Shown in pieces: positions 36,353 to 37,342 of a stretch of DNA of 38,317 nt; position 1 is the first letter of the stretch, and the number at the start of each line of letters is the position of its first letter. The position numbers and the translations under genes were made by a program. Below the pieces are notes generated by a model. It worked only from the letters and a program-made list of their open reading frames with translations, searched no databases and was not told the DNA's origin. Location: NCBI RefSeq assembly GCF_000468495.1, contig NC_022444.1, positions 2,006,194 to 2,044,510 on the forward strand, read 5' to 3'. This DNA is from Megalodesulfovibrio gigas DSM 1382 = ATCC 19364 (GTDB taxonomy: Bacteria; Desulfobacterota; Desulfovibrionia; Desulfovibrionales; Desulfovibrionaceae).

Positions 36353-36610
36353 ATGCAAAACAAGGTCATGCTCTACGCCTTGTCCACCTGCATCCACTGC
36401 AAGAACGCCAAAAAGTATCTGGAAGACAACGGCGTGGAATATGAATCCTTGTATGTGGACAAGCTTGAGGGGGACGAGCGCAAGGCCGTCATTGAGGAAA
36501 TCAAAAAGCACAATTCCGCCTGTTCCTTCCCCACCATCCTTCTGGATGGCGGGGAGCGGGTGATCATCGGCTTCAAGCGCGATGAGCTCAAGGAGGCGCT
36601 CGGCATATGA
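36353..36610 (+). CDS. Glutaredoxin-like protein
   Basis: The 85-residue thioredoxin-fold protein has the active site C13-I-H-C16 in TCIHCKNAKKYLEDNGVEY, the cis-Pro strand SFPTILLDGGERVIIGFKRDELKEAL, and the typical NrdH/glutaredoxin length. An AAGGAAGG stretch precedes the ATG. Its stop overlaps the start of the FTR gene (ATGA), so the two are translated together. It is a likely substrate or partner of the FTR catalytic subunit. Confidence 0.92.
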   Translation: MQNKVMLYALSTCIHCKNAKKYLEDNGVEYESLYVDKLEGDERKAVIEEIKKHNSACSFPTILLDGGERVIIGFKRDELKEALGI

Positions 36611-36936
36611 CTCCGGAAACGCTGCTCGAAACCCTGCGCAAGCTCCAGGAGCCCAAGGGCTACTACTTCAACAAGGACACGGAAATGACCCTGGCCTTGA
36701 TGAACAGCCTGTTGGAAAACAAGAAAACCTACGGCTACATGAGCTGCCCGTGTCGCCTGGCTTCCGGGGAATACGAGAAGGACAAGGACATCATCTGCCC
36801 CTGCGTGTACCGCGAGGCCGATGTGCGGGACTATGGCGCCTGCTTCTGCTGGCTGTACGTCTCCAAGTCCTGGAACGAGGACAAGATCGAGCATCAGTAC
36901 GTGCCCGAGCGCCGGCCGCCGGAAAAAGTCATCTGA
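36607..36936 (+). CDS. Ferredoxin:thioredoxin reductase catalytic subunit-like protein
   Basis: The 109-residue protein carries the FTR beta-subunit Cys signature: C47-P-C49, C64-P-C66 and C79-F-C81, which bind a [4Fe-4S] cluster next to a redox-active disulfide. In the plant/cyanobacterial enzyme the third motif is CHC with a catalytically important His; here it is CFC. N-terminal helices lead in with FNKDTEMTLALMNSLLENKKTYGYMSCPCR. It is coupled to the glutaredoxin gene, suggesting ferredoxin-driven reduction of that protein in a non-photosynthetic cell. No variable (alpha) subunit is nearby. Confidence 0.9.
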   Translation: MTPETLLETLRKLQEPKGYYFNKDTEMTLALMNSLLENKKTYGYMSCPCRLASGEYEKDKDIICPCVYREADVRDYGACFCWLYVSKSWNEDKIEHQYVPERRPPEKVI

Positions 36937-36955: not shown

Positions 36956-36996
36956 CAGCAGCCGGCAGGAATGGTATGTTCCTGCCGGCTGTTTTT
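36956..36996 (+). terminator. Intrinsic terminator after the FTR gene
   Basis: A perfect 13-bp stem (36959-36971 with 36979-36991) with a 7-nt loop is followed by T5 on the plus strand. It ends the glutaredoxin-FTR transcript and lies between these genes and the convergent selenoprotein gene. Confidence 0.92.
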
Positions 36997-37020
36997 CATT
37001 GCACTGTAGTGCACGGTAGC

Positions 37021-37039
37021 TGCCGGCGCACGGCCGGCA
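37021..37039 (-). terminator. Hairpin after the selenoprotein gene
   Basis: TGCCGGC (37021-37027) pairs with GCCGGCA (37033-37039) around a 5-nt loop, 15 bases past the selenoprotein stop on the minus strand. No T tract follows, so termination is tentative. Confidence 0.4.
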
Positions 37040-37053
37040 AAGCGCTATACGCC

Positions 37054-37260
37054 TCACGTCCCCCCAAAGCCGACGGTGATGGTCCCGCCGTCCACAATCA
37101 CCGGAACCTGCCGAACGCCTTTGGTCACATCCAGCAGTTTGGAAAGATGCTTCGGATCCGCCTTCACGTCCACGTACTGATGGTCCTTGTAGGCCTCACG
37201 GGCGTTGGACGTGTAGGGTCAGCCTGCCTTGCCGTAGATGGTGATGCGCGCGGTGGCCAT
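37054..37260 (-). CDS. Glutaredoxin-fold selenoprotein (in-frame TGA as selenocysteine)
   Basis: Read with TGA at 37219-37221 as selenocysteine, the frame gives 68 residues: MATARITIYGKAG-U-PYTSNAREAYKDH, then YVDVKADPKHLSKLLDVTKG and VRQVPVIVDGGTITVGFGGT. This is a complete thioredoxin/glutaredoxin fold: strand, active site U14-P-Y-T17 in place of C-x-x-C, helix, and the cis-Pro strand QVPVIV. Codons after the TGA stay clean to a true TGA at 37054. GGAGG lies 7 bases before the ATG and a -35/-10 promoter is upstream. A SECIS-like hairpin follows the TGA. It resembles small Sec glutaredoxins I recall being annotated as UXX-star (seleno)proteins; this was not checked. Selenium insertion genes are not in the window. 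Confidence 0.85.
37183..37210 (-). promoter_or_regulatory. SECIS-like hairpin downstream of the Sec codon
   Basis: On the mRNA, GTCC (37210-37207) pairs with GGAC (37186-37183) and GCC (37203-37201) with GGC (37195-37193), leaving the 5-nt apical loop CGTGA. The loop begins 18 nt after the TGA, the same distance as the SelB-binding loop in E. coli fdhF. The stem is short, so it is a candidate only. Confidence 0.5.
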
Positions 37261-37313
37261 GGTGTCCTCCAGCAAAAGCTATCGATTGAATAGACTATGA
37301 TAATTACATATGA

Positions 37314-37342
37314 ATGATAGATATTATTGATCTCGACGTCAA
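37314..37342 (-). promoter_or_regulatory. Sigma-70 type promoter of the selenoprotein gene
   Basis: On the minus strand TTGACG (37342-37337) and TATCAT (37319-37314) are separated by exactly 17 nt. Transcription would start near 37306, leaving a leader of about 46 AT-rich bases before the GGAGG ribosome binding site. The AT-rich leader (37280-37320) also holds a repeated TATCAT and a CATATG centre, a possible operator. Confidence 0.7.

Follow-up and report, generated by a model that had tools for sequence, protein, structure and literature searches.

A small gene of the double-selenocysteine UXX-star family 1 with two in-frame TGA codons in Megalodesulfovibrio gigas

The window, by which we mean the whole 38,317-nt stretch of Megalodesulfovibrio gigas DNA that was analysed, contains a hidden gene on its minus strand. 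It starts with an ATG at 37260 and, with its stop codon, runs from 37260 down to 37045. The first-pass annotation had located a selenoprotein gene at 37054-37260 and gave these coordinates without a strand; a plus-strand gene in this interval was ruled out, as translation on the plus strand yields nothing. The minus-strand frame carries the TGA that had been reported at codon 14. The features of the locus are as follows.

37314-37342, minus strand: sigma-70-like promoter, TTGACG-17-TATCAT (consensus match only)
37266-37270, minus strand: ribosome binding site GGAGG, read from the sequence and also present in the same-genus homologue
37045-37260, minus strand: predicted coding sequence of a UXX-star family 1 selenoprotein, 71 residues plus TAG, matching NF041114
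37219-37221, minus strand: predicted selenocysteine (Sec) codon 1, TGA, residue 14 in the U-P-Y-T active site (TGA in 55 and TGC/TGT in 45 of 100 homologues)
37183-37210, minus strand: SECIS-like hairpin of Sec codon 1, with its apical loop at 37200-37196, 18 nt past the TGA
37054-37056, minus strand: predicted Sec codon 2, TGA, residue 69, previously taken for the stop (TGA in 100 of 100 homologues)
37045-37047, minus strand: true stop TAG, read from the sequence (TAA in the same-genus homologue)
37020-37040, minus strand: predicted SECIS hairpin of Sec codon 2, 8 bp, with loop CGUGC at 37032-37028, 3' of the stop codon

With both TGA codons read as Sec, the encoded product is MATARITIYGKAGUPYTSNAREAYKDHQYVDVKADPKHLSKLLDVTKGVRQVPVIVDGGTITVGFGGTUGV. 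The ribosome binding site claimed for the gene was recovered as GGAGG at 37270-37266, 5 nt upstream of the ATG, and the claimed promoter with 17-nt spacing is likewise present at 37342-37314, where one promoter-like match was found against 0.3 expected. Rfam at gathering thresholds gave no match over the whole window. The homologue from the same genus is 85% identical, and its frame is intact with both TGAs kept. The hidden gene is real, and the sequence evidence set out below indicates that its product very probably contains selenocysteine.

The comparison rests on 100 distinct homologues from one phylum, with loci drawn from the taxonomic family and from the phylum. They were gathered with NF041114 above its cut-off, a procedure that would exclude any C-site Cys forms belonging to other UXX-star families. 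Within this set, residue 69 is encoded by TGA in every homologue and is never Cys, the frame closes with a stop codon exactly two codons further on in 98, and 97 have V, I or L as their last residue. In the window gene, positions 37056-37045 read TGA GGC GTA TAG, i.e., U-G-V-stop, which gives the C-terminal end GGT-U-G-V. The family conserves this U-x-x-stop ending, so the TGA at 37056-37054 is best read as a second Sec codon and the product as a protein of 71 residues. The complete 68-residue protein described earlier was thus cut short by three residues.

At the N-terminal site, the codon for residue 14 is TGA in 55 of the homologues, TGC or TGT in the other 45, and nothing else, so that Cys or Sec aligns with codon 14 throughout, as had been proposed for checking. 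The alternation of Cys and Sec that was sought is therefore found at residue 14, while the C-terminal site holds Sec alone. The motif across the set is U/C-P-Y/H/F-T, and the invariant positions are P15, T17, A20, P53 (the glutaredoxin cis-Pro position) and G64. A tree calculated without the residue-14 site, which draws on few columns and contains many unresolved forks, implies at least nine changes between Sec and Cys, four of them forced by well-supported branches. Such repeated switches are expected if both chalcogens do related chemistry at this position.

The hairpin behind the second TGA is strong in the window gene (TTGCCGGC-CGTGC-GCCGGCAG, 21 nt past the TGA) and agrees with the published bacterial SECIS model, which demands at least 4 bp and an energy of -7.5 or lower (PMC13188914). 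At this site, 93 of the 100 homologues have a hairpin whose stem counts 5 bp or more and whose loop measures 4-6 nt, compared with 11% of shuffled sequences; the spacing between TGA and loop is mostly 16-21 nt, and compensating changes are seen in the paired bases of the stem. Loop position 3 is G or U in 90 of 100 and loop position 2 is G in 96 of 100, the latter count being partly built in, as the scan demanded a G within the first two loop positions. The shuffled sequences were scanned under the same rule, so that the stem lengths and the comparison with shuffles are unaffected.

In 49 of the 100 homologues (e.g., L085, L087, L088), the final stop is itself a TGA, 9 nt past the Sec TGA. The distance from this stop to the loop is mostly 7-12 nt, under the published minimum spacing, which would account for its reading as a stop. 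Nearby in-frame UGA codons are probably read differently through SECIS spacing.

Behind codon 14, the SECIS-like loop described earlier does lie 18 nt past the TGA, but the stem that carries it is weak. It consists of an outer stem GUCC/GGAC and a 3-bp inner stem, GCC-CGUGA-GGC, and the best energy of the 48-nt stretch is -6.8 kcal/mol, co-optimal with an alternative fold. This hairpin does not reach the stem length and energy that the published model demands. Among the homologues, a stem of at least 4 bp occurs at the expected spacings in 89% of the Sec-type genes compared with 36% of the Cys-type genes. The Arg codon in the loop of 48 Sec-type genes is CGT in 23, AGG in 21, CGG in 4 and CGC in none, whereas CGC leads among the Arg codons in the rest of those genes (41/146; Fisher P = 2.5e-6 against the loop). 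Both the codon and the stem test ignore phylogeny, and independent pairs give too few contrasts for significance. By sequence and predicted folding, the N-site SECIS is thus weak in the window gene and stronger in its relatives.

The genome itself carries the machinery for Sec insertion that the first-pass annotation had named as a check: selA, selB (350 bits in its frame vs a cut-off of 242), selD and the tRNA-Sec, selC (85.6 bits), were all found. The selD gene (L179, G000:C2:2960582-2961499) has one in-frame TGA of its own and matches its own family on readthrough; its product is probably a selenoprotein itself, and the gene is thus an independent sign of Sec decoding in this organism. Across the taxonomic family, selA is present in 57 of the 60 genomes that carry the gene (Fisher P = 5e-4), and the three without it are merely 67-81% complete. 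With Cys- and Sec-bearing homologues aligned and the Sec machinery in place, the proposed identity of the product, a selenoprotein related to glutaredoxins and carrying U-P-Y-T as its active site, is supported.

The 71-residue protein matches NF041114 (UXX-star selenoprotein family 1) over model positions 1-70 of 70 with 106.3 bits against a cut-off of 72; without the C-terminal UGV, the score is 97.4 bits over model positions 1-67. We regard it as nearly certain that the gene is a double-Sec member of this family. With a full-length match above the cut-off, UxxT, two Sec and the U-x-x-stop end, the protein differs from the family in nothing essential. The type is not undescribed, as NCBIfam and reviews already list the family with two Sec: Table 1 of a 2026 review gives 'Distant Grx-like protein 1 (UXX-star selenoprotein family 1)', NF041114, UxxT, two Sec, citing Zhang and Gladyshev 2008 (the GOS study) for this entry and Haft and Tolstoy 2025 for UXX-star proteins (PMC13188914), and a 2022 review has the same family as UxxT under TIGR02196 (PMC9312934). 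The window protein is hence a new sequence of a catalogued, uncharacterised family.

Among the related groups, the protein exceeds the cut-off of the superfamily NF041212, 'Uxx-star family glutaredoxin-like (seleno)protein', which it shares with families 2 and 3 and the fusion (80 bits, cut-off 66). However, it stays below those of UXX-star families 2 and 3 (NF041211, 44.8 of 100; NF047338, 50.7 of 97) and of the HUGP/GUXX-star fusion (NF045501, 40 of 325). The Pfam Glutaredoxin model of ordinary glutaredoxins (PF00462) matches residues 6-58 above its cut-off. Compared with an ordinary glutaredoxin, and with the CIHC glutaredoxin-like protein encoded nearby, the window protein has Sec for the first Cys and Thr for the second; in contrast to an ordinary glutaredoxin, it stops where the last helix would stand and adds a C-terminal Sec. 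The alignment of U69 to ordinary glutaredoxins is ambiguous, the local alignment stopping short of the tail, and comparison with solved structures gave weak Grx1 matches only. A dithiol glutaredoxin was rejected, as U-P-Y-T stands in place of CxxC and Thr17 is found in 100 of 100 homologues.

Sec14 and Sec69 are the only two chalcogen active residues of the predicted protein. The earlier reading as a monoselenol with no resolving residue is wrong in view of the second, invariant Sec, which lies three residues from the C-terminus. Most likely the two form a redox couple, for which a direction, a reductant and a substrate are proposed here. The stand-alone 71-residue protein is predicted to have a glutaredoxin-like fold truncated just past the glycine-rich turn. 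Sec14 heads the active-site helix (U-P-Y-T), where Thr stands in the place of the usual resolving residue. Sec69 lies in the G-G-T-U-G-V tail at the C-terminus and would replace the absent resolving residue. One selenol would attack the substrate, which may be an oxidised thiol, a peroxide, or a persulfide or selenide species, and the other would resolve the resulting bond to form an intramolecular diselenide (a selenenylsulfide in the Cys14 relatives). Cellular reductants of the thioredoxin or ferredoxin-thioredoxin reductase (FTR) type would then reduce the bridge. No Cys or Sec beyond the two sites occurs in 86 of 100 homologues, and in these an intramolecular bond can therefore only join positions 14 and 69. 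An AlphaFold2 model from a two-sequence alignment reached a mean pLDDT of 44, too low for a 14-69 distance, and was counted against the couple. Taken as a whole, mechanism included, we lean towards a double-Sec family 1 protein that acts as a two-centre redox protein.

The two selenols might instead clamp a soft metal or metalloid (Hg, Cu, Cd, As) or act as carriers of selenium or sulfur in reduced form, with the fold serving as a scaffold and not as a redox enzyme. The invariance of Sec69, for which no homologue substitutes Cys, suits a redox role and, no less, a role in binding a metal or metalloid, and metal binding has been named as possible for the Sec of UXX-star proteins (PMC13188914). 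However, no gene family, metal resistance included, recurs alongside the gene across the phylum when neighbours are compared as clusters, and the active-site proline, the threonine and Pro53 of the glutaredoxin are all invariant, as catalysis would predict. We consider this explanation rather unlikely, although it is the main rival of the two-centre redox protein.

It is very improbable that the TGA at 37056-37054 closes the gene and that the product is a single-Sec monoselenol glutaredoxin of 68 residues. TGA is the stop in most genes, and the frame up to that point matches glutaredoxin; yet the U-x-x-stop end of the homologues, the SECIS hairpin after this TGA, the NF041114 score, which is 97 bits for the protein without its tail and 106 bits when the tail is included, and the two Sec given in the review (PMC13188914) all speak for a longer product. 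The idea of a pseudogene or chance frame, in which the TGA of codon 14 is a real stop and only a 13-residue peptide is made, could draw on the weakness of the N-site SECIS in the window gene. It is scarcely credible given that the copy in the same genus, 85% identical, has an intact frame in which both TGAs are kept, that a TGA stands at exactly codon 14 in 55 homologues, and that the full Sec machinery is encoded in the genome.

The analysis thus bears out the hidden selenoprotein and revises where it ends, placing two recoded TGAs in one small gene, the second of which sits where a gene caller would place the stop. The comparative evidence is useful for both Sec sites, while the protein is an ordinary member of a known family. 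With 55 double-Sec and 45 single-Sec forms and an invariant C-terminal Sec, the set allows the function of the family to be put as a testable question, that of a Sec-Sec couple, and these are natural genes for the study of differing readings of two close UGA codons. Going further, we tentatively suggest, while giving it rather less than even weight, that the protein is a natural minimal diselenide redox protein with a Sec14-Sec69 Se-Se bond, and that, in about half of the genes, the C-terminal hairpin sets apart two UGA codons spaced by 9 nt, the upstream one being decoded as Sec and the downstream one ending translation. If true, this would provide a natural test of SECIS spacing setting the meaning of UGA.

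Around the gene, no conserved partner was found beyond close relatives: neighbours within about 6 kb vary over the 100 loci, and the most frequent recurrent cluster appears at 24 of them, such clusters being confined to groups of related genomes and not phylum-wide. No partner is therefore indicated. In the window, an overlapping plus-strand pair converges on the selenoprotein gene. Its first member (36353-36610), 0.4 kb from that gene, encodes a CIHC glutaredoxin-like protein (Pfam Glutaredoxin), and the second (36607-36936) encodes an FTR catalytic beta chain (Pfam FeThRed_B). The latter product is distantly related to the FtrB double-selenoprotein family NF041072, with a score under the cut-off (51.5 bits vs 160), and has Cys. 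The same-genus genome is the only other one in which the pair adjoins the selenoprotein gene. A strong terminator-like hairpin (36957-36993) lies between the FTR gene and the selenoprotein gene, which converge on each other, and probably serves the plus-strand pair. In another genome (G640, L158:5572 and 5997), two UXX-star family 1 genes, both double-Sec, stand in tandem about 0.4 kb apart.
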